Positions 7,081 to 58,971 of a stretch of DNA of 64,000 nt are shown in pieces. Source of the DNA: Bathymodiolus brooksi (Eukaryota > Mollusca > Bivalvia > Mytilida > Modiolidae); contig OY804582.1 of NCBI GenBank assembly GCA_963680875.1, positions 48,936,646-49,000,645 on the forward strand, read 5' to 3'. Below the pieces are notes generated by a model. It did not search any database and was not told the DNA's origin. It saw nothing but the letters and a program-made list of their open reading frames with translations. The position numbers and the translations under genes were made by a program. Position 1 is the first letter of the stretch. Every line of letters starts with the position of its first letter.

Positions 7081-7082
7081 AT

Positions 7083-27700: not shown

Positions 27701-30700
27701 GCCATTAACTTTTACCTATGTCTGTCTGTATGTCCCTTCCTTAGGCGTAGTGGCCATTGACTTTTACCTATGTCTGTCTGTATGTCCCTTCCTTAGGCGT
27801 AGTGGCCATTAACTTTTACCTATGTCCGTCTCTATGTCCCTTCCTTAGGCGTAGTGGCCATTAACTTTTACCTATGTCTGTCTGTATGTCTCTTCCTTAG
27901 GCGTAGTGGCTATTAACTTTTACCTATGTCCGTCTGTTTGTCCCTTCCTTAGGCGTAGTGGCCATTAACTTTTACCGATGTCTGTCTGTATGTCCCTTCC
28001 TTAGGCATAGTGGCCATTAACTTTTACCTATGTCTGTCTGTATGTCCCTTCCTTAGGCGTAGTGGCCATTAACTTTTACCTATGTCCGTCTGTTTGTCCC
28101 TTCCTTGGGCGTAGTGGCCATTAACTTTTACCTATGTCTGTCTGTATGTCCCTTCCTTAGGCGTAGTGGCCATTGACTTTTACCTATGTCTGTCTGTATG
28201 TCCCTTCCTTAGGTGTAGTGGCCATTGACTTTTACCTATGTCTGTCTGTATGTCCCTTCCTGAGGCGTAGTGGCCATTAACTTTTACCTATGTCTGTCTG
28301 TATGTCCCTTCCTTAGGCATAGTGGCCATTAACTTTTACCTATGTCTGTCTGTATGTCCCTTCCTGAGGCGTAGTGGCTATTAACTTTTACCTATGTCCG
28401 TCTGTTTGTCCCTTCCTTAGGCGTAGTGGCCATTAACTTTTACCTATGTCTGTCTGTATGTCCCTTCCTTAGGCATAGTGGCCATTAACTTTTACCTATG
28501 TCTGTCTGTATGTCCCTTCCTTAGGCGTAGTGGCTATTAACTTTTACCTATGTCCGTCTGTTTGTCCCTTCCTTAGGGATAGTGGCCATTAACTTCTACC
28601 TATGTCCGTCTGTATGTCCCTTCCTTAGGCGTAGTGGCCATTAACTTTTACCTATGTCTGTCTGTATGTCCCTTCCTTAGGTGTAGTGGCCATTAACTTT
28701 TACCTATGTCTCTCTGTATGTCCCTTCCTTAAGCGTAGTGGCCATTAACTTTTACCTATGTCTGTCTGTATGTCCCTTCCTTAGGCGTAGTGGCCATTAA
28801 CTTTTACCTATGTCTGTCTGTATGTCCCTTCCTTAGGCATAGTGGCCATTAACTTTTACCTATGTCTGTCTGTATGTCCCTTCCTTAGGCGTAGTGGCTA
28901 TTAACTTTTACCTATGTCCGTCCGTTTGTCCCTTCCTTAGGCATAGTGGCCATTAACTTCTACCTATGTCCGTCTGTATGTCCCTTCCTTAGGTGTAGTG
29001 GCCATTAACTTTTACCTATGTCTGTCTGTATGTCCCTTCCTTAGGTGTAGTGGCCATTGACTTTTACCTATGTCTGTCTGTATGTCCCTTCCTTAGGCGT
29101 AGTGGCCATTAACTTTTACCTATAGATGTCCATCTGTATGTCCCTCATGTGGTTTCTGCTCAATAACTTAAGTTCTTAAACAAGTCAATTGAAATTGTAT
29201 GTTAAGGGACCATAAGAGAAAGGCCAAGTTCGATTTAGGATGTTACTACTTTTTTCCATTATGGAGTTATGCCCCTTAATTTGCCAAAAAATACATATTT
29301 ACTTTAGCTGGAAGTGAGGGCATCTGTGTCCTCTGAACACATTCTTCCATTTTTATTTTCAGTCAGCCAGAGTATATGCCACCAGAAGTGTTTTGTGACA
29401 GTACTATTGAAAATGATGATCATGTTGAAACTGACATAGTAACTGAACCATGTGGACCCAAAACTGATATATGGTCTCTAGGACTTATATTGCTGGAAAT
29501 TTTTACAGTAAGTGTATGTAAAATATATATGCTCCACAAAAGATGGATTTTGGTTGAGATAATGGGGTTCTAAAGAAGGAATGAAAACACACTTTACTCT
29601 ATCAGACATGTATTATATGGCACAATTTACAACTGACATTAATTAAGAAGGTATTAAAACATTATTACATTAACATTAAATTGTCCATACAATAATTGCA
29701 ACATAGAACATTTACCCTTCTTACTATTATACATATTTACACATATCTTAAAAGTCATGTATTGTTGCAAGCTGTTTTTGTCCAAAGAAAATGATAGTAC
29801 TGCTCAGCTGCAGGCAAGGGACCTTTTCAGACTCGTTTTAGGCTATGAGTTATTCTCATTATTGAAGACCCTACCGTGGCTGTGAACTGTAGAACAGCAA
29901 TAAAGTTGGTGTCCCTTTACTTAGATTGGATGGTCTCTCAAGTTTGTTTGTATCCATAGCCTTTCTTACTAATAAAGTGGTACTGCACACTAAGCTGTTA
30001 TCTCATAGTTTTACCTCTTGCACAACATTAACAATGATATATTTCTATTTTTTAGAATGTTGATCTCTGGGATGGATTGAGCATTCCACAAAAATTTCAC
30101 AGAACAATTGGTTTTTTCAGTAGAGGTATATTATAAATTGATAAAGTTGAGATACAGTAAAACCCTGATATATTCTCCCTAATATACAGCAAATCTTGTA
30201 TTCCACTATGAAATCTACAGGAACCTATTTCCCCCACATGTTAAACCTGGTTATAATTTCACGTCATTTAAGCCTCGATCAAAAATGTCAATTAAATGAT
30301 TTCACACCTGATTGAATTCACTGTCACTAATTACAGGTAAACATCTAATTGATTACACACCTCTTGGTATTGCAGTAAAAACATTTAAAATTTTCAAACT
30401 TAGTAAAAGTTAAATGGTGCTTAAGTTTTAATGAAAAAATAGAATAAAACACACTTACAATTGTTTGAGTTCATTTAATGTGCTGTTTGACTGAAAGATG
30501 TCTGCATAGAAACAAAAGACAAATATGTTGATTTGAAGCGTGAAAGAGAAATTGTTGATTATCTAACAAATTATCCCAAATCTATGGAATAAGAAATTGT
30601 TGATTACTTTAGGACTTTGTGTGATATTTCAGTAAAATGACAAACAATAAGCAATATTGTCACAAATACATGTAAGTGCTTGATAAATCATTTTTAAATG

Positions 30701-33700
30701 GGTTTCAGATTGAGATACACTTCAATTCAATCCTTTATACTTATAAAAGGATTGAAATGAGTCAAGGAAGAACAACATAGCTCACAATTCGCAGGGTCCG
30801 AGGGATAGCAAAAATTCATGTGCATATCAATAGTCATGATTCACATTCAGAAATTACATTAATACACACATCTTTAAGACTAAGCTAATTGTTAAGAACA
30901 GTCAATCTTAATAAATGAATAAATATATTTTTTCAGGACAGCATCCCCTTGATTTTTATGTAGAAGAGTGCAATTTACAAGACAAAATAAAGGTAGCGAA
31001 CATCATACAAACAACAGCCATTTATAGCCAGTATTTGTTACAGTTGTAGTTGGGTAAAAGTAATGGGTATCATCACCTGTTGATATCCCTGAGGAATTGC
31101 CTGTTGCTCAAATAGGAATTAAATATGTTAAACAAAATTCAATTTTCTTGCACTGTGGAATTGGTAAAACATTTCACCATGTTTAAGCTGTATATTTCTT
31201 TAACAGTTGGGGGCGTATTTTACATAATAAATTGTCTAATGTTTACACTCCTTCAATTTTCTATTTTTATATGTAATTCCTTCAACTTTCAATTTTTAGA
31301 TGTAATTCCTTCAACTTTCAATTTTTAGATATAATTCCTTCAACTTTCAATTTTTAGATGTCACTTTTTAAAACATATGTACAGTCTTGTCCAGTAAGTC
31401 AATCTACTATATAAAAATGTCTAGTTTTTTTAATATTTAACTGATGGGAGCCTTTTATAGATTTTTGTCTATAGTTGAAACACTGTAAGTTGATGTTGGG
31501 CACAATTATAACAGTTTTTGAATGATTACTTCACAGGCCTCTACATTAACATGTTTTTCAACTTGTCGCTTCGGACAACTAACTAAAAAAAGTACTTGTC
31601 CAACTCAATCTTTTAGTTGTCCGAAAAAATTAATAAAATTACAAAAACTAGTGAATAATTATCCAGGGCTCCCACTACTTTCAAATTAGATGGAGAAGTG
31701 ACTTCTCTTTCAGAGAGCTCACAGGGAAAATTCTGGGAGAAGTCAATTGCGATTAATCGAAACATTGTTTCGCGACCCCCCTGCCCAAATTTAGTAAATA
31801 GTTAAAGCTGCCTGAACTGATTTATTCTGGGTTTTTTTTTATTCATAGCTACCTTAAGGACATATATTCAATGTCACATTTTTATTTCTGTCTACCTTGA
31901 TTGGAGTCTTGCATACCAGTGATTTTTATATGTACCCCCCCCCCCCCCCCCCCTTTTCCTTTTGAAATATTACTGTGTTGTGGTCCAATACCACACAAAT
32001 TGTAATAATTCATATTTGTGTTATATAAATCCTTGTTTCTGGTAAAAAAAAAATATACCTAGATACTATATATACCAGTATCTAAGTAATTTTTTTTACC
32101 AGAAACAAGTGCCTGTGATATAAATAAAGCAAAGTATTTTATTTAAATTCACAGAGAAATTACAATTTTAGTGGATCTTTTCAACTAGATCAGGAAAAAG
32201 CTTGTAATATTTGTCCATTTCAAGGGTCTAGGACAATTGCCTCCCTAGGACAATATCCCCCCGGTCAATTGCCCCCCCCCCCCATCCCCCAATTTTTTAA
32301 TTTCATTTTTATTCTTTTTTAAATGAGAAATAAATATGCATTAACTCAGATAAAGTTATTCAAATTACTTTTAAGTTGGATTTTTTTCTTTGTATATTAA
32401 TCACAGGGGCTTGAATCGCTTTCATAGAGGTCACGCGACTTATATACCATATATACTAATGTATATAGGCCACATGACCTCTATGAAAGCAATTCAAGCC
32501 CCTGTGATATTAATCATCAAAAGGATTATACAGCTTGGACAAGCTATGATAAAAATAACTTTCTCTTATTATTTATAGATATTTTATTTTTAGATAGAGT
32601 TTAATGATTTTCCAATTAAGTTTAATTACCTTAAAAAATTGGTCTTCAAAGAAATAGGAGTGTATTTTGAAGTGAAAGTATAGTAGTGCAATGGAGTTCA
32701 TAAGAGTCAGAAAGAGGTAATCAGAAACTAAATATAAAACTGAAAAAAATTTGTGGGGGCCATTTTACTAGGGGGGCTATTGTCCTAGGGGGCAATTGTC
32801 TGGGGGGGATATTGTCCTAGGGGGCAATTGTCTGGGAGGCTATTGTCCGGGGGGCTATTGTCCTGCTCCCCCATTTCAAAGTTTTCAATATTTCCCAAAA
32901 GCCTAAATCGTATTTTGCACAAAAGACAAGTTTAAATTTGGTGCCAAATTGATATCCGATAATGTTTACGTATCCGTTCCGGGGTGATTCTTGTTATTAT
33001 ATTTCAAATATTGATATTTCCGTTCATTAAAGCATTTCTGAGATTGCGACTTTAATTTTGTCAATGTCCTTGAACTTCATCAACGCATGGAGGAACGATA
33101 AATGATATCAATAAAAGAGTTTTGATCTGGCGTTTCACTTTAGTTTTAATCAAAATAAATATGGACAAATTGGAGATCAAACAGGGCTCTTTTATACAAC
33201 AAACCCAGTATTTTATACCAGTGGAAATAGATTTGTCTGTCGTACCGGCACGTTTGAGAATCTCCGATTTTTTCACTTGTCCCATCGGACAACCGTAATA
33301 CAAGATCTACTTGTCCGACGTAAGTTTTCACTGGTATCGGACAAACGTTAATGTCGAGGCCTGCTTCACCCTATTTTTTGTTTGTTTTTGTTTTGATATC
33401 CCAGTATCCTGGACATTAATTTTTATACACCAAATAACATCAAAATGGTGCTCAGATGTAGCGTTTATTGACAGATGTAAAAGTGTATCACTCAACTGCA
33501 GACTAGGGACCGTTTCACACTCATTTCAGAGTATGAGATATGCTCATTATTGAAGACCTACTGTGACTAAAATTTAGAACAACTATTCAAGCTCTGTTAA
33601 TTCTTTTGATGAATGGGTAGTAACTGTCAATATTAGTCAATATAATTGTATAGATTCTGACTGCTGCATCCATCTGTTATTTATGAATTTCAATAATATT

Positions 33701-36700
33701 AAATAAAGGTTCTCAAAGTTCCTGTAAAGTAATTTTTTATCTTGCCATCATTTCATTTGCTGTACAATAATGGTATAAAATAAATAATTGCTTTATTCAT
33801 CTGGTAGACAAATAATAATCTCCTGATACCTGAATCCTCTAGAGCGAACAATAGGAAATGGTAACAGTATATTGTGGACACTCTTTAAAAAAGCTTGGAA
33901 TTACGTTTCTTGTTTCTGTTCTTTTCAGTACAATTTTGCTGTTGTTGTGAACTTTTTGACACAGCTGGATATACCATTTAAGTACAATGTACATTGTTGG
34001 TAAAAAGTCAAATTTATTTTTCCAAAGACTCAATTTCAACCTTTTCGAACACGTAATTGTTATATTTTCACTTAATGTACATGTGTTGTATATATACTTA
34101 TCCACCAATTATGTTATTTGGTTTTTTTTTAATGTTTAATTTTATAATCAAATTCAATGCATTACGTTGTGACTTTGCATTCAGTGTTGTTTAGAGTAAT
34201 TTATTTTATTCTTCAGGATTTACCAGAGGATGTGAGGAATGTTTTAAGACAGTGTTTGACTGTCAATACAGAGGACAGGTAAGACTTCTGAACTTGTTAC
34301 TTCAGGGTTTACCAGAGGATGTTAGGAATGTTTTAAGAGAGTGTTTGACTGTCAATACAGAGGACAGGTAAGACTTATAAACTGTTACTTCAGGATTTAC
34401 CAGAGGATGTTATGAATGTTTTAAGGCAGTGTTTGACTGTCAATACAGAGGACAGGTAAGACTTCTAAGCTGTTACTTCAGGATTTACCAGAGGATGTTA
34501 GGAATGTTTTAAGACAGTGTTTGATTGTCAATACAGAGGACAGGTAAGACTTCTGAACTGTTACTTCAGGATTTACCAGAGGATGTTAGGAATGTTTTAA
34601 GAGAGTGTTTGACTGTCAATACAGAGGACAAGTAAGACTTCTGAACTTGTTACTTCAGGATTTACCAGAGGATGTTAGGAATGTTTTAAGACAGTGTTTG
34701 ACTGTCAATACAGAGGACAGGTAAGACTTCTAAACTGTTACTTCAGGATTTACCAGAAGATGTTAGGAATGTTTTAAGACAGTGTTTGACTGTCAATACA
34801 AAGGACAGGTAAGACTTCTGAACTGTTACTTCAGAATTTACCAGAGGATGTTAGGAATGTTTTAAGACAGTGTTTGACGGTCAATACAGAGGACAGGTAA
34901 GACTTCTGAACTTGTTACTTCAGAATTTACCAGAGGATGTTAGGAATGTTTTAAGACAGTGTTTGACTGTCAATACAGAGGACAGGTAAGACTTCTGAAC
35001 TTGTTACTTCAAGATTTACCAGAGGATGTTAGGAATGTTTTAAGACAGTGTTTGACTGTCAATACAGAGGACAGGTAAGACTTCTAAGCTGTTACTTCAG
35101 GATTTACCAGAGGATGTTAGGAATGTTTTAAGGCAGTGTTTGACTGTCAATACAGAGGACAGGTAAGACTTCTAAGCTGTTACTTCAGGATTTACCAGAG
35201 AATGTTAGGAATGTTTTAAGACAGTGTTTGACTGTCAATACAGAGGACAAGTAAGACTTCTGAACTTGTTACTTCAGGATTTACCAGAGGATGTTAGGAA
35301 TGTTTTAAGACAGTGTTTGACTGTCAATACTGAGGACAGGTAAGACTTCTAAACTTGTTACTTCAGGATTTACCAGAGGATGTTAGGAATGTTTTAAGAC
35401 AGTGTTTGACTGTCAATACAGAGGACAGGTAAGACTTCTGAACTGTTACTTCAGAATTTACCAGAGGATGTTAGGAATGTTTTAAGACAGTGTTTGACTG
35501 TCAATACAGAGGACAGGTAAGACTTCTGAACTTGTTACTTCAGAATTTACCAGAGGATGTTAGGAATGTTTTAAGACAGTGTTTGACTGTCAATACAGAG
35601 GACAGGTAAGACTTCTGAACTTGTTACTTCAGGATTTACCAGAGGATGTTAGGAATGTTTTAAGAGAGTGTTTGACTGTCAATACAGAGGACAGGTAAGA
35701 CTTCTAAGCTGTTACTTCAGGATTTACCAGAGGATGTTAGGAATGTTTTAAGGCAGTGTTTGACTGTCAATACAGAGGACAGGTAAGACTTCTAAGCTGT
35801 TACTTCAGGATTTACCAGAGAATGTTAGGAATGTTTTAAGACAGTGTTTGATTGTCAATACAGAGGACAGGTAAGACTTCTGAACTGTTACTTCAGGATT
35901 TACCAGAGGATGTTAGGAATGTTTTAAGACAGTGTTTGACTGTCAATACAGAGGACAGGTAAGACCTCTAAACTGTTACTTCAGGATTTACCAGAGGATG
36001 TTAGGAATGTTTTAAGACAGTGTTTGACTGTCAATACAGAGAACAGGTAAGACTTCTGAACTTGTTACTTCAGGATTTACCAGAGGATGTTAGGAATGTT
36101 TTAAGTCAGTGTTTGACTGTCAATACAGAGGACAGGTAAGACTTCTAAACTGTTACTTCAGGATTTACCAGAGGATGTTAGGAATGTTTTAAAACAGTGT
36201 TTGACTGTCAATACAGAGGACAGGTAAGACTTCTGAACTTGTTACTTCTGGATTTACCAGAGGATGTTAGGAATGTTTTAAGACAGTGTTTGACTGTCAA
36301 TACAGAGGACAGGTAAGACTTCTGAACTTGTTACTTCAGGATTTACCAGAGGATGTTAGGAATGTTTTAAGACAGTGTTTGACTGTCAATACAGAGGACA
36401 GGTAAGACTTCTGAACTTGTTGCTTCAGAATTTACCAGAGGATGTTAGGAATGTTTTAAGACAGTGTCTGACTGTCAATACAGAGGACAGGTAAGACTTC
36501 TGAACTTGTTACTTCAGGATTTACCAGAGGATGTTAGGAATGTTTTAAGAGAGTGTTTGACTGTCAATACAGAGGACAGGTAAGACTTCTGAACTTGTTA
36601 CTTCAGGATTTACCAGAGGATGTTAGGAATGTTTTAAGACAGTGTTTGACTGTCAATACAGAGGACAGGTAAGACTTCTGAACTGTTACTTCAGAATTTA

Positions 36701-39700
36701 CCAGAGGATGTTAGGAATGTTTTAAGACAGTGTTTGACTGTCAATACAGAGGACAGGTAAGACTTCTGAACTTGTTACTTCAGAATTTACCAGAGGATGT
36801 TAGGAATGTTTTAAGACAGTGTTTGACTGTCAATACAGAGGACAGGTAAGACTTCTGAACTTGTTACTTCAGAATTTACCAGAGGATGTTAGGAATGTTT
36901 TAAGACAGTGTTTGACTGTCAATACAGAGGACAGGTAAGACTTCTGAACTTGTTACTTCTGGATTTACCAGAGGATGTTAGGAATGTTTTAAGACAGTGT
37001 TTGACTGTCAATACAGAGGACAGGTAAGACTTCTGAACTTGTTACTTCTGGATTTACCAGAGGATGTTAGGAATGTTTTAAGACAGTGTTTGACTGTCAA
37101 TACAGAGGACAGGTAAGACTTCTGAACTTGTTGCTTCAGAATTTACCAGAGGATGTTAGGAATGTTTTAAGACAGTGTCTGACTGTCAATACAGAGGACA
37201 GGTAAGACTTCTGAACTTGTTACTTCAGGATTTACCAGAGGATGTTAGGAATGTTTTAAGAGAGTGTTTGACTGTCAATACAGAGGACAGGTAAGACTTC
37301 TGAACTTGTTACTTCAGGATTTACCAGAGGATGTTAGGAATGTTTTAAGACAGTGTTTGACTGTCAATACAGAGGACAGGTAAGACTTCTGAACTGTTAC
37401 TTCAGAATTTACCAGAGGATGTTAGGAATGTTTTAAGACAGTGTTTGACTGTCAATACAGAGGACAGGTAAGACTTCTGAACTTGTTACTTCAGAATTTA
37501 CCAGAGGATGTTAGGAATGTTTTAAGACAGTGTTTGACTGTCAATACAGAGGACAGGTAAGACTTCTGAACTTGTTACTTCAAGGTTTACCAGAGGATGT
37601 TAGGAATGTTTTAAGGCAGTGTTTGACTGTCAATACAGAGGACAGTTAAGACTTCTAAGCTGTTACTTCAGGATTTACCAGAGGATGTTAGGAATGTTTT
37701 AAGGCAGTGTTTGACTGTCAATACAGAGGACAGGTAAGACTTCTAAGCTGTTACTTCAGGATTTACCAGAGAATGTTAGGAATGTTTTAAGACAGTGTTT
37801 GATTGTCAATACAGAGGACAGGTAAGACTTCTGAGCTTGTTACTTCAGGATTTACCAGAGGATGTTAGGAATGTTTTAAGACAGTGTTTGATTGTCAATA
37901 CAGAGGACAGGTAAGAGTTCTAAACTGTTACTTCAGGATTTACCAGAAGATGTTAGGAATGTTTTAAGACAGTGTTTGACTGTCAATACAGAGGACTGGT
38001 AAGACTTCTAAGCTGTTACTTCAGGATTTACCAGAGGATGTTAGGCATGTTTTAAGACAGTGTTTGACTGTCAATACAGAGGACAGGTAAGACTTCTGAA
38101 CTGTTACTTCAGAATTTACCAGAGGATGTTAGGAATGTTTTAAGACAGTGTTTGACTGTCAATACAGAGGACAGGTAAGACTTCTGAACTTGTTACTTCA
38201 AAATTTACCAGAGGATGTTAGGAATGTTTTAAGACAGTGTTTGACTGTCAATACAGAGGACAGGTAAGACTTCTGAACTTGTTACTTCAGGATTTACCAG
38301 AGGATGTTAGGAATGTTTTAAGACAGTGTTTGACTGTCAATACAGAGGACAGGTAAGACTTCTAAGCTGTTACTTCAGGATTTACCAGAGGATGTTAGGA
38401 ATGTTTTAAGACAGTGTTTGACTGTCAATACAGAGGACAGGTAAGACTTCTAAGCTGTTACTTCAGGATTTACCAGAGGATGTTAGGAATGTTTTAAGAC
38501 AGTGTTTGATTGTCAATACAGAGGACAGGTAAGACTTCTGAACTGTTACTTCAGGATTTACCAGAGGATGTTAGGAATGTTTTAAGACAGTGTTTGACTG
38601 TCAATACAGAGGACAGGTAAGACCTCTAAACTGTTACTTCAGGATTTACCAGAGGATGTTAGGAATGTTTTAAGTCAGTGTTTGACTGTCAATACAGAGG
38701 ACAGGTAAGACTTCTAAACTGTTACTTCTGGATTTACCAGAGGATGTTAGGAATGTTTTAAGACAGTGTTTGACTGTCAATACAGAGGACAGGTAAGACT
38801 TCTGAACTTGTTACTTCAGGATTTACCAGAGGATGTTAGGAATGTTTTAAGACAGTGTTTGACTGTCAATACAGAGGACAGGTAAGACTTCTGAACTTGT
38901 TGCTTCAGAATTTACCAGAGGATGTTAGGAATGCTTTAAGACAGTGTCTGACTGTCAATACAGAGGACAGGTAAGACTTCTGAACTTGTTACTTCAGAAT
39001 TTACCAGAGGATGTTAGGAATGTTTTAAGACAGTGTTTGACTGTCAATACAGAGGACAGGTAAGACTTCTGAACTTGTTACTTCAGGATTTACCAGAGGA
39101 TGTTAGGAATGTTTTAAGAGAGTGTTTGACTGTCAATACAGAGGACAGGTAAGACTTCTGAACTGTTACTTCAGAATTTACCAGAGGATGTTAGGAATGT
39201 TTTAAGACAGTGTTTGACTGTCAATACAGAGGACAGGTAAGACTTCTGAACTTGTTACTTCAGAATTTACCAGAGGATGTTAGGAATGTTTTAAGACAGT
39301 GTTTGACTGTCAATACAGAGGACAGGTAAGACTTCTGAACTTGTTACTTCAGAATTTACCAGAGGATGTTAGGAATGTTTTAAGACAGTGTTTGACTGTC
39401 AATACAGAGGACAGGTAAGACTTCTGAACTTGTTACTTCTGGATTTACCAGAGGATGTTAGGAATGTTTTAAGAGAGTGTTTGACTGTCAATACAGAGGA
39501 CAGGTAAGACTTCTAAGCTGTTACTTCAGGATTTACCAGAGGATGTTAGGAATGTTTTAAGGCAGTGTTTGACTGTCAATACAGAGGACAGATAAGACTT
39601 CTAAGCTGTTACTTCAGGATTTACCAGAGAATGTTAGGAATGTTTTAAGACAGTGTTTGATTGTCAATACAGAGGACAGGTAAGACTTCTGAACTGTTAC

Positions 39701-42700
39701 TTCAGGATTTACCAGAGGATGTTAGGAATGTTTTAAGACAGTGTTTGACTGTCAATACAGAGGACAGGTAAGACCTCTAAACTGTTACTTCAGGATTTAC
39801 CAGAGGATGTTAGGAATGTTTTAAGACAGTGTTTGACTGTCAATACAGAGGACAGGTAAGACTTCTGAACTTGTTACTTCAGGATTTACCAGAGGATGTT
39901 AGGAATGTTTTAAGTCAGTGTTTGACTGTCAATACAGAGGACAGGTAAGACTTCTAAACTGTTACTTCAGGATTTACCAGAGGATGTTAGGAATGTTTTA
40001 AAACAGTGTTTGACTGTCAATACAGAGGACAGGTAAGACTTCTGAACTTGTTACTTCTGGATTTACCAGAGGATGTTAGGAATGTTTTAAGACAGTGTTT
40101 GACTGTCAATACAGAGGACAGGTAAGACTTCTGAACTTGTTACTTCAGGATTTACCAGAGGATGTTAGGAATGTTTTAAGACAGTGTTTGACTGTCAATA
40201 CAGAGGACAGGTAAGACTTCTGAACTTGTTGCTTCAGAATTTACCAGAGGATGTTAGGAATGTTTTAAGACAGTGTCTGACTGTCAATACAGAGGACAGG
40301 TAAGACTTCTGAACTTGTTACTTCAGGATTTACCAGAGGATGTTAGGAATGTTTTAAGAGAGTGTTTGACTGTCAATACAGAGGACAGGTAAGATTTCTG
40401 AACTTGTTACTTCAGGATTTACCAGAGGATGTTAGGAATGTTTTAAGACAGTGTTTGACTGTCAATACAGAGGACAGGTAAGACTTCTGAACTGTTACTT
40501 CAGAATTTACCAGAGGATGTTAGGAATGTTTTAAGACAGTGTTTGACTGTCAATACAGAGGACAGGTAAGACTTCTGAACTTGTTACTTCAGAATTTACC
40601 AGAGGATGTTAGGAATGTTTTAAGACAGTGTTTGACTGTCAATACAGAGGACAGGTAAGACTTCTGAACTTGTTACTTCAGAATTTACCAGAGGATGTTA
40701 GGAATGTTTTAAGACAGTGTTTGACTGTCAATACAGAGGACAGGTAAGACTTCTGAACTTGTTACTTCTGGATTTACCAGAGGATGTTAGGAATGTTTTA
40801 AGACAGTGTTTGACTGTCAATACAGAGGACAGGTAAGACTTCTGAACTTGTTACTTCTGGATTTACCAGAGGATGTTAGGAATGTTTTAAGACAGTGTTT
40901 GACTGTCAATACAGAGGACAGGTAAGACTTCTGAACTTGTTGCTTCAGAATTTACCAGAGGATGTTAGGAATGTTTTAAGACAGTGTCTGACTGTCAATA
41001 CAGAGGACAGGTAAGACTTCTGAACTTGTTACTTCAGGATTTACCAGAGGATGTTAGGAATGTTTTAAGAGAGTGTTTGACTGTCAATACAGAGGACAGG
41101 TAAGACTTCTGAACTTGTTACTTCAGGATTTACCAGAGGATGTTAGGAATGTTTTAAGACAGTGTTTGACTGTCAATACAGAGGACAGGTAAGACTTCTG
41201 AACTGTTACTTCAGAATTTACCAGAGGATGTTAGGAATGTTTTAAGACAGTGTTTGACTGTCAATACAGAGGACAGGTAAGACTTCTGAACTTGTTACTT
41301 CAGAATTTACCAGAGGATGTTAGGAATGTTTTAAGACAGTGTTTGACTGTCAATACAGAGGACAGGTAAGACTTCTGAACTTGTTACTTCAAGGTTTACC
41401 AGAGGATGTTAGGAATGTTTTAAGGCAGTGTTTGACTGTCAATACAGAGGACAGTTAAGACTTCTAAGCTGTTACTTCAGGATTTACCAGAGGATGTTAG
41501 GAATGTTTTAAGGCAGTGTTTGACTGTCAATACAGAGGACTGGTAAGACTTCTAAGCTGTTACTTCAGGATTTACCAGAGAATGTTAGGAATGTTTTAAG
41601 ACAGTGTTTGATTGTCAATACAGAGGACAGGTAAGACTTCTGAGCTTGTTACTTCAGGATTTACCAGAGGATGTTAGGAATGTTTTAAGACAGTGTTTGA
41701 TTGTCAATACAGAGGACAGGTAAGAGTTCTAAACTGTTACTTCAGGATTTACCAGAAGATGTTAGGAATGTTTTAAGACAGTGTTTGACTGTCAATACAG
41801 AGGACTGGTAAGACTTCTAAACTGTTACTTCAGGATTTACCAGAGGATGTTAGGCATGTTTTAAGACAGTGTTTGACTGTCAATACAGAGGACAGGTAAG
41901 ACTTCTGAACTGTTACTTCAGAATTTACCAGAGGATGTTAGGAATGTTTTAAGACAGTGTTTGACTGTCAATACAGAGGACAGGTAAGACTTCTGAACTT
42001 GTTACTTCAAAATTTACCAGAGGATGTTAGGAATGTTTTAAGACAGTGTTTGACTGTCAATACAGAGGACAGGTAAGACTTCTGAACTTGTTACTTCAGG
42101 ATTTACCAGAGGATGTTAGGAATGTTTTAAGACAGTGTTTGACTGTCAATACAGAGGACAGGTAAGACTTCTAAGCTGTTACTTCAGGATTTACCAGAGG
42201 ATGTTAGGAATGTTTTAAGGCAGTGTTTGACTGTCAATACAGAGGACAGGTAAGACTTCTAAGCTGTTACTTCAGGATTTACCAGAGAATGTTAGGAATG
42301 TTTTAAGACAGTGTTTGATTGTCAATACAGAGGACAGGTAAGACTTCTGAACTGTTACTTCAGGATTTACCAGAGGATGTTAGGAATGTTTTAAGACAGT
42401 GTTTGACTGTCAATACAGAGGACAGGTAAGACCTCTAAACTGTTACTTCAGGATTTACCAGAGGATGTTAGGAATGTTTTAAGTCAGTGTTTGACTGTCA
42501 ATACAGAGGACAGGTAAGACTTCTAAACTGTTACTTCAGGATTTACCAGAGGATGTTAGGAATGTTTTAAGGCAGTGTTTGACTGTCAATACAGAGGACA
42601 GGTAAGACTTCTAAACTGTTACTTCTGGATTTACCAGAGGATGTTAGGAATGTTTTAAGACAGTGTTTGACTGTCAATACAGAGGACAGGTAAGACTTCT

Positions 42701-45700
42701 GAACTTGTTACTTCAGGATTTACCAGAGGATGTTAGGAATGTTTTAAGAGAGTGTTTGACTGTCAATACAGAGGACAGGTAAGACTTCTGAACTGTTACT
42801 TCAGAATTTACCAGAGGATGTTAGGAATGTTTTAAGACAGTGTTTGACTGTCAATACAGAGGACAGGTAAGACTTCTGAACTTGTTACTTCAGAATTTAC
42901 CAGAGGATGTTAGGAATGTTTTAAGACAGTGTTTGACTGTCAATACAGAGGACAGGTAAGACTTCTGAACTTGTTACTTCAGAATTTACCAGAGGATGTT
43001 AGGAATGTTTTAAGACAGTGTTTGACTGTCAATACAGAGGACAGGTAAGACTTCTGAACTTGTTACTTCTGGATTTACCAGAGGATGTTAGGAATGTTTT
43101 AAGACAGTGTTTGACTGTCAATACAGAGGACAGGTAAGACTTCTGAACTTGTTACTTCAGGATTTACCAGAGGATGTTAGGAATGTTTTAAGACAGTGTT
43201 TGACTGTCAATACAGAGGACAGGTAAGACTTCTGAACTTGTTTCTTCAGAATTTACCAGAGGATGTTAGGAATGTTTTAAGACAGTGTCTGACTGTCAAT
43301 ACAGAGGACAGGTAAGACTTCTGAACTTGTTACTTCAGGATTTACCAGAGGATGTTAGGAATGTTTTAAGAGAGTGTTTGACTGTCAATACAGAGGACAG
43401 GTAAGACTTCTGAACTTGTTACTTCAGGATTTACCAGAGGATGTTAGGAATGTTTTAAGACAGTGTTTGACTGTCAATACAGAGGACAGGTAAGACTTCT
43501 GAACTGTTACTTCAGAATTTACCAGAGAATGTTAGGAATGTTTTAAGAGAGTGTTTGACTGTCAATACAGAGGACAGGTAAGACTTCTGAACTTGTTACT
43601 TCAGAATTTACCAGAGGATGTTAGGAATGTTTTAAGACAGTGTTTGACTGTCAATACAGAGGACAGGTAAGACTTCTGAACTTGTTACTTCAGGATTTAC
43701 CAGAGGATGTTAGGAATGTTTTAAGACAGTGTTTGACTGTCAATACAGAGGACAGTTAAGACTTCTAAGCTGTTACTTCAGGATTTACCAGAGAATGTTA
43801 GGAATGTTTTAAGACAGTGTTTGATTGTCAATACAGAGGACAGGTAAGACTTCTGAGCTTGTTACTTCAGGATTTACCAGAGGATGTTAGGAATGTTTTA
43901 AGACAGTGTTTGATTGTCAATACAGAGGACAGGTAAGAGTTCTAAACTGTTACTTCAGGATTTACCAGAAGATGTTAGGAATGTTTTAAGACAGTGTTTG
44001 ACTGTCAATACAGAGGACAGTTAAGACTTCTAAGCTGTTACTTCAGGATTTACCAGAGAATGTTAGGAATGTTTTAAGACAGTGTTTGATTGTCAATACA
44101 GAGGACAGGTAAGACTTCTGAGCTTGTTACTTCAGGATTTACCAGAGGATGTTAGGAATGTTTTAAGACAGTGTTTGATTGTCAATACAGAGGACAGGTA
44201 AGAGTTCTAAACTGTTACTTCAGGATTTACCAGAAGATGTTAGGAATGTTTTAAGACAGTGTTTGACTGTCAATACAGAGGACAGGTAAGACTTCTAAGC
44301 TGTTACTTCAGGATTTACCAGAAGATGTTAGGAATGTTTTAAGAAAGTGTTTGACTGTCAATACAGAGGACAGGTAAGACTTCTGAACTTGTTGCTTCAG
44401 GATTTACCAGAGGATGTTAGGAATGTTTTAAGACAGTGTTTGATTGTCAATACAGAGGACAGGTAAGACTTCTAAACTGTTACTTCAGGATTTACCAGAG
44501 GATGTTAGGAATGTTTTAAGACAGTGTTTGACTGTCAATACAGAGGACAGGTAAGACTTCTGAACTTGTTACTTCAGGATTTACCAGAGGATGTTAGGAA
44601 TGTTTTAAGAGAGTGTTTGCCTGTCAATACAGAGGACAGGTAAGACTTCTGAACTTGTTACTTCAGAATTTACCAGAGGATGTTAGGAATGTTTTAAGAG
44701 AGTGTTTGACTGTCAATACAGAGGACAGGTAAGACTTCTGAACTTGTTACTTCAGGATTTACCAGAGGATGTTAGGAATGTTTTAAGACAGTGTTTGACT
44801 GTCAATACAGAGGACAGGTAAGACTTCTGAACTTGTTACTTCAGAATTTACCAGAGGATGTTAGGAATGTTTTAAGACAGTGTTTGACTGTCAATACAGA
44901 GGACAGGTAAGACTTCTGAACTTGTTACTTCAGGATTTACCAGAGGATGTTAGGAATGTTTTAAGACAGTGTTTGAATGTCAATACAGAGGACAGGTAAG
45001 ACTTCTGAATTTGTTACTTCAGAATTTGCCAGAGGATGTTAGGAATGTTTTAAGACAGTGTTTGACTGTCAATACAGAGGACTGGTAAGACTTCTGAACT
45101 TATTACTTCAGGATTTACCAGAGGATGTTAGGAATGTTTTAAGACAGTGTTTGACTGTCAATACAGAGGACAGGTAAGACTTCTGAACTTGTTACTTCAG
45201 AATTTACCAGAAGATGTTAGGAATGTTTTAAGACAGCGTTTGACTGTCAATACAGAGGACAGGTAAGACTTCTGAACTGTTACTTCAGGATTTACCAGAA
45301 GATGTTAGGAATGTTTTAAGACAGTGTTTGACTGTCAATACAGAGGACAGGTAAGACTTCTGAACTTGTTACTTCAGGATTTACCAGAGGATGTTAGGAA
45401 TGTTTTAAGACAGTGTTTGATTGTCAATACAGAGGACAGGTAAGACTTCTAAACTGTTACTTCAGGATTTACCAGAGGATGTTAGGAATGTTTTAAGACA
45501 GTGTTTGACTGTCAATACAGAGGACAGGTAAGACTTCTGAACTTGTTACTTCAGGATTTACCAGAGGATGTTAGGAATGTTTTAAGAGAGTGTTTGACTG
45601 TCAATACAGAGGACAGGTAAGACTTCTGAACTTGTTACTTCAGAATTTACCAGAGGATGTTAGGAATGTTTTAAGAGAGTGTTTGACTGTCAATACAGAG

Positions 45701-48700
45701 GACAGGTAAGACTTCTGAACTTGTTACTTCAGGATTTACCAGAGGATGTTAGGAATGTTTTAAGACAGTGTTTGACTGTCAATACAGAGGACAGGTAAGA
45801 CTTCTGAACTTGTTACTTCAGAATTTACCAGAGGATGTTAGGAATGTTTTAAGACAGTGTTTGACTGTCAATACAGAGGACAGGTAAGACTTCTGAACTT
45901 GTTACTTCAAGGTTTACCAGAGGATGTTAGGAATGTTTTAAGGCAGTGTTTGACTGTCAATACAGAGGACAGTTAAGACTTCTAAGCTGTTACTTCAGGA
46001 TTTACCAGAGGATGTTAGGAATGTTTTAAGGCAGTGTTTGACTGTCAATACAGAGGACTGGTAAGACTTCTAAGCTGTTACTTCAGGATTTACCAGAGAA
46101 TGTTAGGAATGTTTTAAGACAGTGTTTGATTGTCAATACAGAGGACAGGTAAGACTTCTGAGCTTGTTACTTCAGGATTTACCAGAGGATGTTAGGAATG
46201 TTTTAAGACAGTGTTTGATTGTCAATACAGAGGACAGGTAAGAGTTCTAAACTGTTACTTCAGGATTTACCAGAAGATGTTAGGAATGTTTTAAGACAGT
46301 GTTTGACTGTCAATACAGAGGACTGGTAAGACTTCTAAGCTGTTACTTCAGGATTTACCAGAGGATGTTAGGCATGTTTTAAGACAGTGTTTGACTGTCA
46401 ATACAGAGGACAGGTAAGACTTCTGAACTGTTACTTCAGAATTTACCAGAGGATGTTAGGAATGTTTTAAGACAGTGTTTGACTGTCAATACAGAGGACA
46501 GGTAAGACTTCTGAACTTGTTACTTCAAAATTTACCAGAGGATGTTAGGAATGTTTTAAGACAGTGTTTGACTGTCAATACAGAGGACAGGTAAGACTTC
46601 TGAACTTGTTACTTCAGGATTTACCAGAGGATGTTAGGAATGTTTTAAGACAGTGTTTGACTGTCAATACAGAGGACAGGTAAGACTTCTAAGCTGTTAC
46701 TTCAGGATTTACCAGAGGATGTTAGGAATGTTTTAAGGCAGTGTTTGACTGTCAATACAGAGGACAGGTAAGACTTCTAAGCTGTTACTTCAGGATTTAC
46801 CAGAGAATGTTAGGAATGTTTTAAGACAGTGTTTGATTGTCAATACAGAGGACAGGTAAGACTTCTGAACTGTTACTTCAGGATTTACCAGAGGATGTTA
46901 GGAATGTTTTAAGACAGTGTTTGACTGTCAATACAGAGGACAGGTAAGACCTCTAAACTGTTACTTCAGGATTTACCAGAGGATGTTAGGAATGTTTTAA
47001 GTCAGTGTTTGACTGTCAATACAGAGGACAGGTAAGACTTCTAAACTGTTACTTCTGGATTTACCAGAGGATGTTAGGAATATTTTAAGGCAGTGTTTGA
47101 CTGTCAATACAGAGGACAGGTAAGACTTCTAAACTGTTACTTCTGGATTTACCAGAGGATGTTAGGAATGTTTTAAGACAGTGTTTGACTGTCAATACAG
47201 AGGACAGGTAAGACTTCTGAACTTGTTACTTCAGGATTTACCAGAGGATGTTAGGAATGTTTTAAGAGAGTGTTTGACTGTCAATACAGAGGACAGGTAA
47301 GACTTCTGAACTGTTACTTCAGAATTTACCAGAGGATGTTAGGAATGTTTTAAGACAGTGTTTGACTGTCAATACAGAGGACAGGTAAGACTTCTGAACT
47401 TGTTACTTCAGAATTTACCAGAGGATGTTAGGAATGTTTTAAGACAGTGTTTGACTGTCAATACAGAGGACAGGTAAGACTTCTGAACTTGTTACTTCAG
47501 AATTTACCAGAGGATGTTAGGAATGTTTTAAGACAGTGTTTGACTGTCAATACAGAGGACAGGTAAGACTTCTGAACTTGTTACTTCTGGATTTACCAGA
47601 GGATGTTAGGAATGTTTTAAGACAGTGTTTGACTGTCAATACAGAGGACAGGTAAGACTTCTGAACTTGTTACTTCAGGATTTACCAGAGGATGTTAGGA
47701 ATGTTTTAAGACAGTGTTTGACTGTCAATACAGAGGACAGGTAAGACTTCTGAACTTGTTTCTTCAGAATTTACCAGAGGATGTTAGGAATGTTTTAAGA
47801 CAGTGTCTGACTGTCAATACAGAGGACAGGTAAGACTTCTGAACTTGTTACTTCAGGATTTACCAGAGGATGTTAGGAATGTTTTAAGAGAGTGTTTGAC
47901 TGTCAATACAGAGGACAGGTAAGACTTCTGAACTTGTTACTTCAGGATTTACCAGAGGATGTTAGGAATGTTTTAAGACAGTGTTTGACTGTCAATACAG
48001 AGGACAGGTAAGACTTCTGAACTGTTACTTCAGAATTTACCAGAGAATGTTAGGAATGTTTTAAGAGAGTGTTTGACTGTCAATACAGAGGACAGGTAAG
48101 ACTTCTGAACTTGTTACTTCAGAATTTACCAGAGGATGTTAGGAATGTTTTAAGACAGTGTTTGACTGTCAATACAGAGGACAGGTAAGACTTCTGAACT
48201 TGTTACTTCAGGATTTACCAGAGGATGTTAGGAATGTTTTAAGACAGTGTTTGACTGTCAATACAGAGGACAGTTAAGACTTCTAAGCTGTTACTTCAGG
48301 ATTTACCAGAGAATGTTAGGAATGTTTTAAGACAGTGTTTGATTGTCAATACAGAGGACAGGTAAGACTTCTGAGCTTGTTACTTCAGGATTTACCAGAG
48401 GATGTTAGGAATGTTTTAAGACAGTGTTTGATTGTCAATACAGAGGACAGGTAAGACTTCTAAGCTGTTACTTCAGGATTTACCAGAAGATGTTAGGAAT
48501 GTTTTAAGAAAGTGTTTGACTGTCAATACAGAGGACAGGTAAGACTTCTGAACTTGTTGCTTCAGGATTTACCAGAGGATGTTAGGAATGTTTTAAGACA
48601 GTGTTTGATTGTCAATACAGAGGACAGGTAAGACTTCTAAACTGTTACTTCAGGATTTACCAGAGGATGTTAGGAATGTTTTAAGACAGTGTTTGACTGT

Positions 48701-51700
48701 CAATACAGAGGACAGGTAAGACTTCTGAACTTGTTACTTCAGGATTTACCAGAGGATGTTAGGAATGTTTTAAGAGAGTGTTTGCCTGTCAATACAGAGG
48801 ACAGGTAAGACTTCTGAACTTGTTACTTCAGAATTTACCAGAGGATGTTAGGAATGTTTTAAGAGAGTGTTTGACTGTCAATACAGAGGACAGGTAAGAC
48901 TTCTGAACTTGTTACTTCAGGATTTACCAGAGGATGTTAGGAATGTTTTAAGACAGTGTTTGACTGTCAATACAGAGGACAGGTAAGACTTCTGAACTTG
49001 TTACTTCAGAATTTACCAGAGGATGTTAGGAATGTTTTAAGACAGTGTTTGACTGTCAATACAGAGGACAGGTAAGACTTCTGAACTTGTTACTTCAGGA
49101 TTTACCAGAGGATGTTAGGAATGTTTTAAGACAGTGTTTGAATGTCAATACAGAGGACAGGTAAGACTTCTGAATTTGTTACTTCAGAATTTGCCAGAGG
49201 ATGTTAGGAATGTTTTAAGACAGTGTTTGACTGTCAATACAGAGGACTGGTAAGACTTCTGAACTTATTACTTCAGGATTTACCAGAGGATGTTAGGAAT
49301 GTTTTAAGACAGTGTTTGACTGTCAATACAGAGGACAGGTAAGACTTCTGAACTTGTTACTTCAGAATTTACCAGAAGATGTTAGGAATGTTTTAAGACA
49401 GCGTTTGACTGTCAATACAGAGGACAGGTAAGACTTCTGAACTGTTACTTCAGGATTTACCAGAAGATGTTAGGAATGTTTTAAGACAGTGTTTGACTGT
49501 CAATACAGAGGACAGGTAAGACTTCTGAACTTGTTACTTCAGGATTTACCAGAGGATGTTAGGAATGTTTTAAGACAGTGTTTGATTGTCAATACAGAGG
49601 ACAGGTAAGACTTCTAAACTGTTACTTCAGGATTTACCAGAGGATGTTAGGAATGTTTTAAGACAGTGTTTGACTGTCAATACAGAGGACAGGTAAGACT
49701 TCTGAACTTGTTACTTCAGGATTTACCAGAGGATGTTAGGAATGTTTTAAGAGAGTGTTTGACTGTCAATACAGAGGACAGGTAAGACTTCTGAACTTGT
49801 TACTTCAGAATTTACCAGAGGATGTTAGGAATGTTTTAAGAGAGTGTTTGACTGTCAATACAGAGGACAGGTAAGACTTCTGAACTTGTTACTTCAGGAT
49901 TTACCAGAGGATGTTAGGAATGTTTTAAGACAGTGTTTGACTGTCAATACAGAGGACAGGTAAGACTTCTGAACTTGTTACTTCAGAATTTACCAGAGGA
50001 TGTTAGGAATGTTTTAAGACAGTGTTTGACTGTCAATACAGAGGACAGGTAAGACTTCTGAACTTGTTACTTCAGGATTTACCAGAGGATGTTAGGAATG
50101 TTTTAAGACAGTGTTTGAATGTCAATACAGAGGACAGGTAAGACTTCTGAATTTGTTACTTCAGAATTTGCCAGAGGATGTTAGGAATGTTTTAAGACAG
50201 TGTTTGACTGTCAATACAGAGGACTGGTAAGACTTCTGAACTTATTACTTCAGGATTTATCAGAGGATGTTAGGAATGTTTTAAGACAGTGTTTGACTGT
50301 CAATACAGAGGACAGGTAAGACTTCTGAACTTGTTACTTCAGAATTTACCAGAAGATGTTAGGAATGTTTTAAGACAGCGTTTGACTGTCAATACAGAGG
50401 ACAGGTAAGACTTCTGAACTGTTACTTTAATATGACATTAAATTAAGAAGAAGAAAAAATATAAGCTTAAATTTCTGATAACTTTTAGATTCATATAATG
50501 ATTTTTCCTATACATTGTATTTTATTTGAAAGTAAAATGAGGTAGAAGGAGTTAGGGTGCATCATTATGCATCTTTATATAAGTTATTTTATGTTATGTA
50601 TACCGGTACCCTTGTAAAGCCTTTCTAGAAAGGTCAAACTAGTTGATTCACTAAATATACCACATCAGTACTCCCCAGTGTTGTCTAATGACCCATTCAT
50701 TTATATCTTTAGTATCAGCTACATAATACTTGTTATGGATCTACATTACAATATTGTGTGCAGGATAGTAGAGAAATTTTTTTATTGTTGAAGCATTTTT
50801 TATTCAGTCAAAGATTAAGCAGATGGTGATTTAGAAAGTGTACAACCCTTTCATTTTGCTGCCTTGTATATACCCCTGCATTTGAATATTTAAATGTGAC
50901 AGAGTAAGAGATTGCTCAAACATTTATTTATCACGCTAAGGACAAATAAATGTAGTATGTTGCACACGTCTACATTGCTATACAGTGAAACCTATCTATA
51001 GAGAACCTCTTTGAGACCAACTTTTGTGTTCATAATAGACAGGTGTTCAGTTTATGCAGGTTGGATTAATACAGATTCCCTACAGTAGAACTGCATTTTA
51101 AGTTCAGTTTATACAGTATTCTTGTTTATTCAGGGTTTGGTTTATACAGGATTCTGGTTTATTGAGGATTCAGTTTATACAGGATTCTGGTTTATTCAGG
51201 GTTCAGTTTATACATGATTCTGGTTTATTCAGGGTTCAGTTTATACAGGATTCTGGTTTATTCAGGGTTTGGTTTATATTGGATTCTGGTTTATTCAGGG
51301 TTCAGTTTATACAAGATTCTGGTTTATTCAGGGTTCAGTTTATACAATATTCTGGTTTATTCAGGGTTCAGTTTATACAGGATTCTGGTTTAATGAGGGT
51401 TCAGTTTATACAAGATTCTGGTTTATTCAGGGTTTGGTTTATACAGGATTCTGGTTTATTGAGGGTTCAGTTTATACAAGATTCTGGTTTATTCAGGGTT
51501 TGGTTTATACAGGATTCTGGTTTATTCAGGGTTTGGTTTATACAAGATTCTTGTTTATTGAGGGTTCAGTTTATACAAGATTCTGGTTTATTGAGGGTTC
51601 AGTTTATACAAGATTCTGGTTTATTCAGGGTTTGGTTTATACAGGATTCTGGTTTATTCAGGGTTTGGTTTATACAAGATTCTGGTTTATTCAGGGTTCA

Positions 51701-54700
51701 GTTTATACAAGATTCTGGTTTATTCAGGGTTCAGTTTATACAAGATTCTGGTTTATTCAGGGTTTGGTTTATACAGGATTCTGGTTTATTCAGGGTTCAG
51801 TTTATACAAGATTCTGGTTTATTCAGGGTTCAGTTTATACAAGATTCTGGTTTATTCAGGGTTCAGTTTATACAAGATTCTGGTTTATTCAGGGTTTGGT
51901 TTATACAGGATTCTGGTTTATTCAGGGTTCAGTATATACAATATTCTGGTTTATTCAGGGTTCAGTTTATACAGGATTCTGGTTTATTCAGGGTTTGGTT
52001 TATACAAGATTCTGGTTTATTCAGGGTTTGGTTTATACAGGATTCTGGTTTATTCAGGGTTCAGTTTATACAAGATTCTGGTTTATTCAGGGTTCAGTTT
52101 ATACAGGATTCTGGTTTATTCAGGGTTCAGTTTATACAAGATTCTGGTTTATTCAGGGTTCAGTTTATACAGGATTCTGGTTTATTCAGGGTTCAGTTTA
52201 TACAAGATTCTGGTTTATTCAGCATTTGGTTTAGACAGGTTTTACTCTATTATAAAGTGTGACTGAAAAAAGATATACCAAATTGTTTGCCTTTCAACAA
52301 TATATATAATTGTTTTTGTTTTCACGTAAATGACAAAATAAGTAAAATCTGCTGTTAGTAAAGCTTCAGAATACTGTATAAAATTGTTTAGTATTACAGA
52401 GAAAGAAATCGTGATTACTACTCCTGGAATACTTATGAAAAGAAAATTTAAACAGTGATGGTTAGCAATTCCACTAATACACACAATCACCTCTCACCAC
52501 TCGCTGAACATAAAAAAAAACCCACAACATCATATTAGGATAGGGGCAGGTGCAAAAATGTGGCCTGATTAAACTAGTTAATAGGATCCCTACACTCTCC
52601 TCTAGATAATTAGATCGCCAATGACACTACGTATATAAACCAGTTAATAGGATCCCTACACTCTCCTCTAGATAATTAGATCTCCAATGACACTACATAT
52701 ATAAACAAAGGATAAAAGACATGAACAGATTCTGTATTGTAATACTGTAAAATGTAGTTTTACTGAAAATTTAACTTCTTACCTTCTTGTAAATTATTTA
52801 ACTTAAGAGTAGCTGCAAGGACAAGATCCTGTTCTTTTTTTTTCTGGTATTTGGTTTAATCTATATATGGATTTGTGTTATTAATAGCTACATGTATATA
52901 TCCTTATAAATGTTGATTTTTAACAAATAGTGATTTCATTTATGATTTCAGACCGTCTCCTGAAACCTTATTACAAGATCAAATCTTTAACCAACATAAT
53001 GCTACTAAGGTAAGATATTTTAACAAATAACATTGATCTGAATGTCGACAACTCTCCTCTTACTGTTTGTTTTATGTAGGTTTATTCCATAGCTTGTTAT
53101 CAGTACTGTATGTATGGATAGTAGTTGTAGATAAAGAAATGAAGTTTGTTTTTTTGGGGGATGGGGGTGGGTGGGAATAAAGTAGTACATTCCGTCCTGT
53201 GTATAATTATCTAATTTAAAGAAGGAACATCCTTCTCTGGTATTTTATTTTTCATATATTATGGAAGGAAAGTTTAAAAAGTGGTGGTCAACAATTCCAC
53301 TAATACCAACAAATCGAACAATCACCTCTCATGTATATATTCTATGTAAAACTACTTGACTGTATGATGGAGAACAGTTATCCTATACAACTTTTATGTT
53401 TTATAATGTTAGTGGCATATGCACATTTTATGCTTGGTATATATATACAGTACAATCTAAGAATACTATTGACCCCAAAGTGATAAGACTTCATACAGTG
53501 AAGATGCAACCTATTTAGTTGAGGCGAATTAGGTAAATAACATATATGACTTGACTGATAATGCACACCTTTAGTCTTATAAAAACGTAGATATCAAATT
53601 TAGTGTGCATGACATATTTCTGGAGAAACCTTCATCAGGTACACTCGGAGCCGAAAAATTGGAAAGCTAAATAATTAAAAAAAAATTAGGAGCAATAAAA
53701 CCAAAAGGCCTAAACAGGATAGCCTAAGTTTATCTTATTGATATATATGAAATTAAGGATTTAATCATTATAAAAACATACTACTATTCTTTTAGAAATC
53801 ATACAAGAATGGTCACCGACTATTCACTGTTGAAATGAGATCTAAAGATCTGGAGTTGCCTGTTTATGGTGAAAATGGTTACACAGAAGGTAAATAAACA
53901 TTTAAATATATTACAGAATAAACAGTTTGCTTTTTTTTTATACAAGTATAATAAATCTGTATGGCTTTAATGTTGTTATTGCTGTCAGAAGTTTTTAATG
54001 ACCTCATTAGCCTCAGATGCAGAAGGTCATGGATTTGATCCCTAGTCAGGTCAAAGCAAAGACAATTATATTGATATTTGCTGCTTGTCTGTTAAGAGGG
54101 TAACATTAGCTATAGAGATAATGAACAAAGATGTGTTGACTGGAAGTCAGGATAATATATCGGAGTCGAGCGACAGGTCTAATTGTGGATTGTTTTATCA
54201 GTGAGTGATGGTTGCTTAATGCCAAATGAGCAATTTTTCAGCTATATCATGGCGAGGAAAAGTTACATTCAATGAAATGATGATGATGTCCACTTTGTAC
54301 TAGACCAACACGCTTAATTGGATCTTTATAGTGCTAGACCACAGAAACAGCAGTCATCAGATAGACATCACTCCACTCTGACACATTATCCTGATTCCGA
54401 GCCATCCAATTAGTTATGCTAAATTATTATGTGTTATTGATGTTGAATATAACTTGTATCTCAGAATTATATCATTCCATATAGAAAATTAACATAGTAA
54501 TAAATACATAAAATGTACAGTGGAAACAGATTCATGTAAATAATTATATGAGGAGGTCGTCAGACTATACATGTTTCCATTTTATGTTTTTTAGACCATT
54601 TGTCAGAGAGGTCTTTTGATGAAGTATATTATTTATGGAGACTAGCTGGTGGAGATTTAGAAGGTGTTCTTAAATCACAAGGTTTAGTTAAAACGAAACC

Positions 54701-58508: not shown

Positions 58509-58971
58509 GTACTAGTCAATATTATATGTCTGTCTTGTCATAAGTGTTGAATCCTTGTTTCCTTTTTCCCAATTATTGCCCTTTGTAATGTACAGTTTTG
58601 GCATATGCAAATCACTAATAAGTTGTAGACAATCTATGTAATAAAAAAAATGGAGAATTTGAAGGAGGCATGTTTTTTGTATCAAAATCAACTTTGTTAT
58701 TCCATTTTAGTTCCAGTGGTTAGTTCACCTTATGGATGAATGAATTGTGTAGAGAAAGCAAATCTTTAGTAAATGACATGCTTCCTCAATTATACTTGAC
58801 CATTTCTTCTACTGTGAAGTGTTATTACCTTAACATATTGAACAATTGGGGAAAGAAACACAGTTTAAACTTGGCCTAATGGTCACCTCCCAGCTGCTGT
58901 AGATGACAATTTAAGACCCTCCTGGCCAGCTTAATGTAATATTTCAACTCTAATAAGTAATCACCTCACAG
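58509..58971. other. Intron 12, unique part and array lead-in
   Basis: Mostly unique. From about 58870 it has the GGTCACCTCCCAGCTGC and AAGTAATCACCTCACAGC blocks of the dispersed repeat also found at 25705-25935, then the array begins. Confidence 0.6.

Follow-up and report, generated by a model that had tools for sequence, protein, structure and literature searches.

The 64,000-nt window analyzed here is a stretch of the genome of the bivalve Bathymodiolus brooksi (assembly GCA_963680875.1, contig OY804582.1, positions 48,936,646–49,000,645 of the forward strand; positions below are counted from its first nt). It contains part of a TBCK gene on the plus strand, in which one coding exon, exon 8, is present in 183 tandem copies together with its splice sites. 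A second, smaller array in the same gene is formed from the donor region of exon 11. The original prediction for this locus, made without database searches, placed an amplified TBCK exon here and proposed that only one copy would enter each message.

The exon 8 array and the TBCK gene model

The exon 8 array is at positions 34211–50427 on the plus strand. Tandem Repeats Finder (TRF) reports it as one array of head-to-tail units with a period of 89, 183.0 copies and 96% matches. A wrap-around alignment, which is independent of TRF, gives 110 units of 89 bp and 73 units of 88 bp. Each unit consists of the 62-nt coding exon and a 26–27-nt spacer, with the donor GTAAGA and the acceptor CTTCAG. The exon is 62 nt in 183/183 copies, and the differences in length are confined to two columns of the spacer. 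The array is too large to be due to chance. It has the properties of a minisatellite, i.e., head-to-tail units of tens of bp that are near-identical and show block duplications. The predicted unit of 88–89 bp, carrying the exon with its splice sites and repeated about 180 times, is thus borne out by both methods.

Copy 1 (positions 34217–34278) has the native acceptor tract. Alignment and a phase check show that the exon is entered in phase 0 and left in phase 2, as had been predicted. It encodes 20 residues and a split R codon, which belong to the kinase-like domain, at its C-terminal end. A single base sets copy 1 apart from the array consensus: the G at exon position 18 is seen in no other copy. 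The last copy, copy 183 (positions 50343–50404), has a C13R change at a cysteine that is nearly invariant in the alignment with relatives, and ordinary intron sequence resumes 3' of it.

There are 57 distinct unit types, 21 of which occur once, and their order is complex. Block duplications are found at lags of 43, 47, 51 and 94 units, with peaks of similarity at 51, 43 and 94, and exact repeats within the array are up to 1642 bp in length. The lag peaks and the long exact repeats point to growth by block duplication. Among the exact repeats, those with lengths of 1642, 1374 and 1145 bp lie approximately 3.8–4.5 kb apart; blocks like these could also be added by a mis-assembly, and the copy number may then be an assembly product, with a shorter array expanded or two haplotypes merged. 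This is quite unlikely, as it does not fit well with the many unit types and singletons, their complex order and the block duplications at several lags. The vicinity also holds five further large arrays with other units, and tens of units would probably stay after removal of the repeated blocks. By eye, the sequences at the outer edges of the array, TATTCTTCAG upstream and GTTACTTTAAT downstream, have a CTT in common at the junction; this suggests that the initial duplication occurred with little homology.

The identification of the gene as TBCK in the original prediction is confirmed by protein matches. Exon peptides translated from the window, used as a query, match TBCK proteins, and in a tblastn search with the 41 matched proteins the TBCK exons fall in order on the plus strand, among the matches listed. 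Twelve coding exons with agreeing phases, including one array copy, give a 390-aa model with no stop. Comparison of this model with TBCK relatives shows a best E value of 3.8e-98 and 100% coverage. The model also matches Pfam Pkinase (2.8e-30), and both the N-terminal kinase-like domain and TBCK-specific sequence are thus found. The TBC and rhodanese parts of TBCK are expected to lie 3' of the window end. Two protein searches gave 83 proteins, 45 of which were used in the alignment with relatives.

All exons of the model are on the plus strand. Coding exons 1 (21572–21764, with the ATG at 21572), 2 (23336–23408), 3 (24372–24486), 5 (29363–29507), 11 (54595–54721) and 12 (58406–58508), the last of the window model, were placed by tblastn and a phase check, and exon 4 (25137–25210) by a human probe and a phase check. 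Exons 6 (30056–30125), 7 (30937–30992), 9 (52952–53009) and 10 (53796–53889) are weak matches (best targeted E 0.004 to about 0.04) that were placed with the help of phase and splice sites. Exon 9, to which the array exon would be joined on its 3' side, has an E value of 0.005 in a targeted search, and exon 10, which is also found by tblastn, has a value of 0.004; phase and splice sites agree for both. The intron from copy 1 to exon 9 is 18,673 nt, and the remaining ten introns of the model are 548–4152 nt.

Approximately 47 residues near model residue 362, which are present in TBCK relatives and expected at positions 54722–58405, were not located within the window by a targeted search. The missing piece, together with the 182 extra exon copies and 32 extra donor-region repeats in one gene, could indicate a broken allele or gene copy, i.e., a TBCK hypomorph or pseudogene in which the array blocks splicing. 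This is very improbable in view of the twelve open and phase-compatible exons, which encode 390 aa without a stop and are fully covered by relatives; moreover, exon 11 joins exon 12 in frame even without the piece of approximately 47 residues.

Reading frame and splice sites of the copies

The reading frame was analyzed by inserting different numbers of copies into the model, with exon 7 before them and exon 9 after them. With zero copies the model has a stop after 245 residues. With one copy it is open for 175/183 copies, and a TGA arises where the other eight are joined to exon 9. For larger numbers (two, three, four, 181 or 183), the stop comes after 272 residues in the sets listed. No open frame is present in the 16,653 ordered pairs of copies or in 3,000 random four-copy sets, and a copy in second place meets a stop in 183/183 cases. 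It had been proposed that 1, 4, 7 and so on copies would keep the frame. The arithmetic of this rule is correct but the open frame is not there: a copy in second place falls into a different frame, which contains a stop, and the rule shrinks to a single copy. Messages with four or seven copies are ruled out as productive by translation. Reading through a donor gives an immediate stop in 183/183 units, as predicted.

As judged by translation of the model, the TBCK reading frame demands one copy per message. The frame part of the proposed one-copy filter therefore stands, and it is stricter than had been thought, since the tested sets with zero copies or with more than one all stop. The cell would have to ignore or discard the other copies.

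Both the AG and the GT are intact in 159/183 units. The AG is lost before 20 copies and the GT after seven, with both lost in three, i.e., the splice site consensus consists of an AG before 163/183 copies and a GT after 176/183. (The alignment column gives 21 losses of the AG, a count that takes in the tail after the last copy; the count per copy is 20.) The repeated splice sites are thus as originally described, but the statement that almost every unit keeps both dinucleotides was too strong. Among TBCK relatives with a residue at the position, C13 is kept in 39/41, L14 in 41/41 and R21 in 38/38. C13 or R21 is broken in five splice-intact copies, in addition to the eight copies that make a stop.

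The acceptor tracts were compared at positions -20 to -4. The T content is 71% in copy 1 and 41–59% in copies 2–183. The pyrimidine content of the acceptor tract is 76% in copy 1 and 65–76% in copies 2–183, which is barely lower, and the T content of the same stretch in the other exons of the model is 47–71% (47–53% in exons 2, 7 and 10). Measured against the rest of the gene, acceptors within the array cannot be called weak. The strength of the tract is not enough by itself to set copy 1 apart, since the pyrimidine contents are similar and other exons are equally T-poor.

The spacers, at 26–27 nt, had been considered too short for a normal animal intron. This fits the introns of this TBCK gene but is not universal. 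In dicyemids, 16 introns with a mean of 26.2 nt are described in one report (PMC2222250), and the corresponding part of a later dicyemid genome report has a mean intron of 38.2 bp (PMC6736024). Nothing in the TBCK gene points to dicyemid-like tiny introns.

Variation among the copies and choice of copy

For the four columns of the splice dinucleotides the mean minor frequency is 0.038, compared with 0.021 over all 89 columns, and 79% of 20,000 random sets of four columns have values as low as the splice columns or lower. No constraint on the splice site columns was seen by column variability across the array. The first 60 bases of the exon have 25 distinct variants, 18 replacement and seven silent, compared with 133:37 possible changes (Fisher p = 0.45). 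No depletion of replacement changes is seen in the array exon by this test, and the changes look neutral. These tests of selection are rough, since the units of the array are related by descent. The encoded peptide is identical to that of copy 1 in 60/183 copies (copy 1 included), and differs by one residue in 95, by two in 26 and by three in two. In these comparisons the copies show no sign of being kept for use.

These data bear on a giant cluster of mutually exclusive exons, which was one of the two outcomes foreseen in the original prediction. In such a cluster any splice-intact copy could be taken, more or less at random, and steric exclusion and decay would enforce the use of one. It is consistent with the finding that only one-copy messages are open, with the number of copies that keep both dinucleotides (159/183) or look fully usable (146/183; see below), and with array acceptors whose T contents resemble those of some other TBCK exons. 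Short spacers are also known from exon clusters: in the section of PMC8042237 cited here, more than 45% of the introns between Dscam1 exon 6 variants in Coleoptera are shorter than 50 bp. Nevertheless such a cluster is unlikely. There would be little gain from it, as most of the peptides are the same as that of copy 1 or one residue off, and the splice sites are without constraint. Distinct selected variants, as in a Dscam-type cluster, were not found in the array; the peptides are near-identical and the changes look neutral.

There is also no sign of elements for the selection of copies. The spacers are nearly identical across the array, and no copy-specific selector is therefore evident. The longest exact complement to the unit has 9 nt both in the 3218 nt searched upstream and in the 2511 nt searched downstream, which is within the range of 50 mononucleotide shuffles per side, in a search that covered exact complements, with wobble pairing and covariation outside its scope. 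A model with docking sites and selectors was dropped, since the exact complements are no longer than those in the shuffles.

The second array (positions 54666–56652, plus strand) was determined by TRF and a parse of its units. It consists of 33 units of 60 bp, in each of which GTAA follows the 3'-terminal 56 nt of exon 11, and the 3' part of exon 11 is its first unit. The donor GT is kept in 31/33 units and an in-frame TAA ends 33/33, so that reading beyond the first donor stops at once. With an in-frame TAA in each unit, only the first donor could be productive. This supports use of the first copy in the exon 8 array.

The explanation that we favor, with a probability of about 0.72, is that of an intragenic minisatellite that carries an exon and has grown by block duplication, where copy 1 is normally used and the other 182 copies are left as intronic decoys. 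It would have started with a tandem duplication in which the intron sequence immediately 3' of exon 8 became linked to the acceptor region of this exon, with a homology of at most the 3 nt of CTT. The pair would then have expanded to 183 copies by repeated block duplications, in a probable order of events. The duplication could be tolerated because one copy suffices and the first copy keeps its own upstream intron. Exon 7 would be spliced to copy 1, by way of the acceptor native to this copy, and copy 1 in turn to exon 9 at a distance of 18.7 kb, with copies 2–183 remaining in the intron. The later acceptors end 26–27 nt after the start of a donor, and U1 on this donor should therefore hinder U2 at the short branch region. 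Copy 1 would also be the first to be made in transcription, and its position is a better argument for its use than tract strength. Messages with zero or multiple copies, or with read-through of a donor, have an early stop and would probably undergo nonsense-mediated decay. If faulty messages are decayed, the extra copies would be near-neutral for the protein and could drift. Copy 1 and copy 3 or later copies could be joined sterically, which gives a stop, and some waste through nonsense-mediated decay is to be expected.

The analysis favors constant use of copy 1 over the cluster of mutually exclusive exons, based on the variable splice columns, the absence of replacement depletion, the broken copies, the lack of a docking complement and the donor-only second array. 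Several properties of the array weigh against the use of copy 1 only. We infer its preferred use from features of the sequence, and 146/183 copies look fully usable, i.e., they have both splice sites, an open frame and C13, L14 and R21 kept. To these may be added the similar pyrimidine contents of the acceptors and the T contents of the other exons, given above. Stops are present inside the first 20 codons in 0/183 copies. This is not surprising, since stop-making changes are 10 of 180 possible changes and, with only 25 variants, approximately 1.4 distinct ones are expected by a hand calculation. The exon columns vary less than the spacer columns (0.017 compared with 0.031), but this is not significant (Mann-Whitney p = 0.18). 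Columns with insertions or deletions are found in 0/62 exon and 2/27 spacer columns, which is also not significant (p = 0.09).

Neighboring repeats and comparison with known systems

Eleven TRF arrays fill 47% of the window, and those from position 26198 on cover 76% of positions 26198–64000; these figures are for arrays hand-picked from the TRF list. The latter coverage suggests a region prone to tandem growth. The other large arrays found by TRF are 52 bp x 56 (positions 26198–29123), 33 bp x 34 (51102–52222) and 60 bp x 83 (58968–64000), the last of which runs off the window end. By eye this 60-bp array gave the impression of a TBCK coding stretch, which was rejected as it sits 3' of exon 12. 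An array of approximately 34 units of 40 bp (positions 56904–58285) has a pyrimidine-rich tract that ends in TAG and is acceptor-like, with the AG kept in 33/36 parsed rows, two of which are partial. It was rejected as a third exon array and is read as an intronic repeat, because the sequence after its last unit resembles that at approximately 29.29 kb, before exon 5 (by eye). No significant preference of arrays for exon edges was found by a rough hand estimate (two in six large arrays).

Pieces of a LINE-type retrotransposon are found at positions 3418–7209 on the minus strand, with the reverse transcriptase determined by a protein search and the endonuclease part by eye. They sit roughly between two arrays (positions 2577–3118 and 7092–7731) which, on visual inspection, seem to have a unit of approximately 70 bp in common. 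The reverse transcriptase piece matches a sequence from Mytilus galloprovincialis with 63% identity over 62% of the query, and there are records with higher identity as well, among the best 120 of 213. Taken by itself, this match would make a bivalve source likely.

A comparable exon array was not found in the open-access literature searched, a scope outside which most subscription papers lie. Some known systems are similar in part. In human IFI6 (6-16), a minisatellite provides more than one splice donor (Turri et al. 1995, via PMC4526556). As far as it is described there, its short units are repeated in tandem at the edge of an exon and serve as donors, and the second TBCK array is anatomically alike. 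A splice site consensus in the units is found in both TBCK arrays. However, only donors are repeated in IFI6, whereas each of the 183 units of the exon 8 array is derived from a complete coding exon together with its acceptor and its donor. In addition, the repeat-borne sites of IFI6 are reported there to be used in RNA, whereas those of the TBCK arrays are candidate sites.

In D. melanogaster, Dscam1 has 48 variants of exon 6 (PMC8042237). Within the part of that account used here, Dscam1 is similar in its tandem exon copies, one of which is present per message, and in the short introns between copies in some insects. It differs in having many isoforms and docking or selector elements, whereas the TBCK copies hardly differ from one another and the searches above revealed no elements of this kind. 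The kringle IV-2 repeat of LPA is 5.6 kb, with two exons per unit and 1 to about 40 units (PMC11462820). It is similar in that it is a coding repeat of variable number with units that carry exons and introns. According to the cited portion, the LPA units are translated and represent up to 70% of the protein, whereas a second TBCK copy creates a stop. Tetrahymena LRR genes have arrays of 90-bp exons (PMC6564038), which are likewise tandem arrays of exons of one length, grown by intragenic duplication. The relevant passage describes phase 2 introns on both sides, approximately 257 bp in T. thermophila, and an array that is translated whole; in contrast, the TBCK exon is asymmetric (62 nt) and the spacers are 26–27 nt.

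The best reading of these data is that the structure is real and striking, and that it represents a tolerated exon-bearing minisatellite and not a giant device for alternative splicing. The TBCK array is a natural extreme test of splice site choice, in which exactly one of 183 near-identical exons with near-equal donors must be taken. The choice of copy, and how clean this choice is, would separate models based on transcription order, acceptor strength and steric blocking, and the single-base marker at exon position 18 (G) already tells copy 1 from the rest. Should any splice-intact copy be taken after all, the gene would be one that tolerates an exon satellite in which the redundant copies of a single exon form a large pool. 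A minisatellite can engulf an exon and yet leave an open gene model, which suggests that the annotation of repeat-rich genomes may overlook or miscount such exons.

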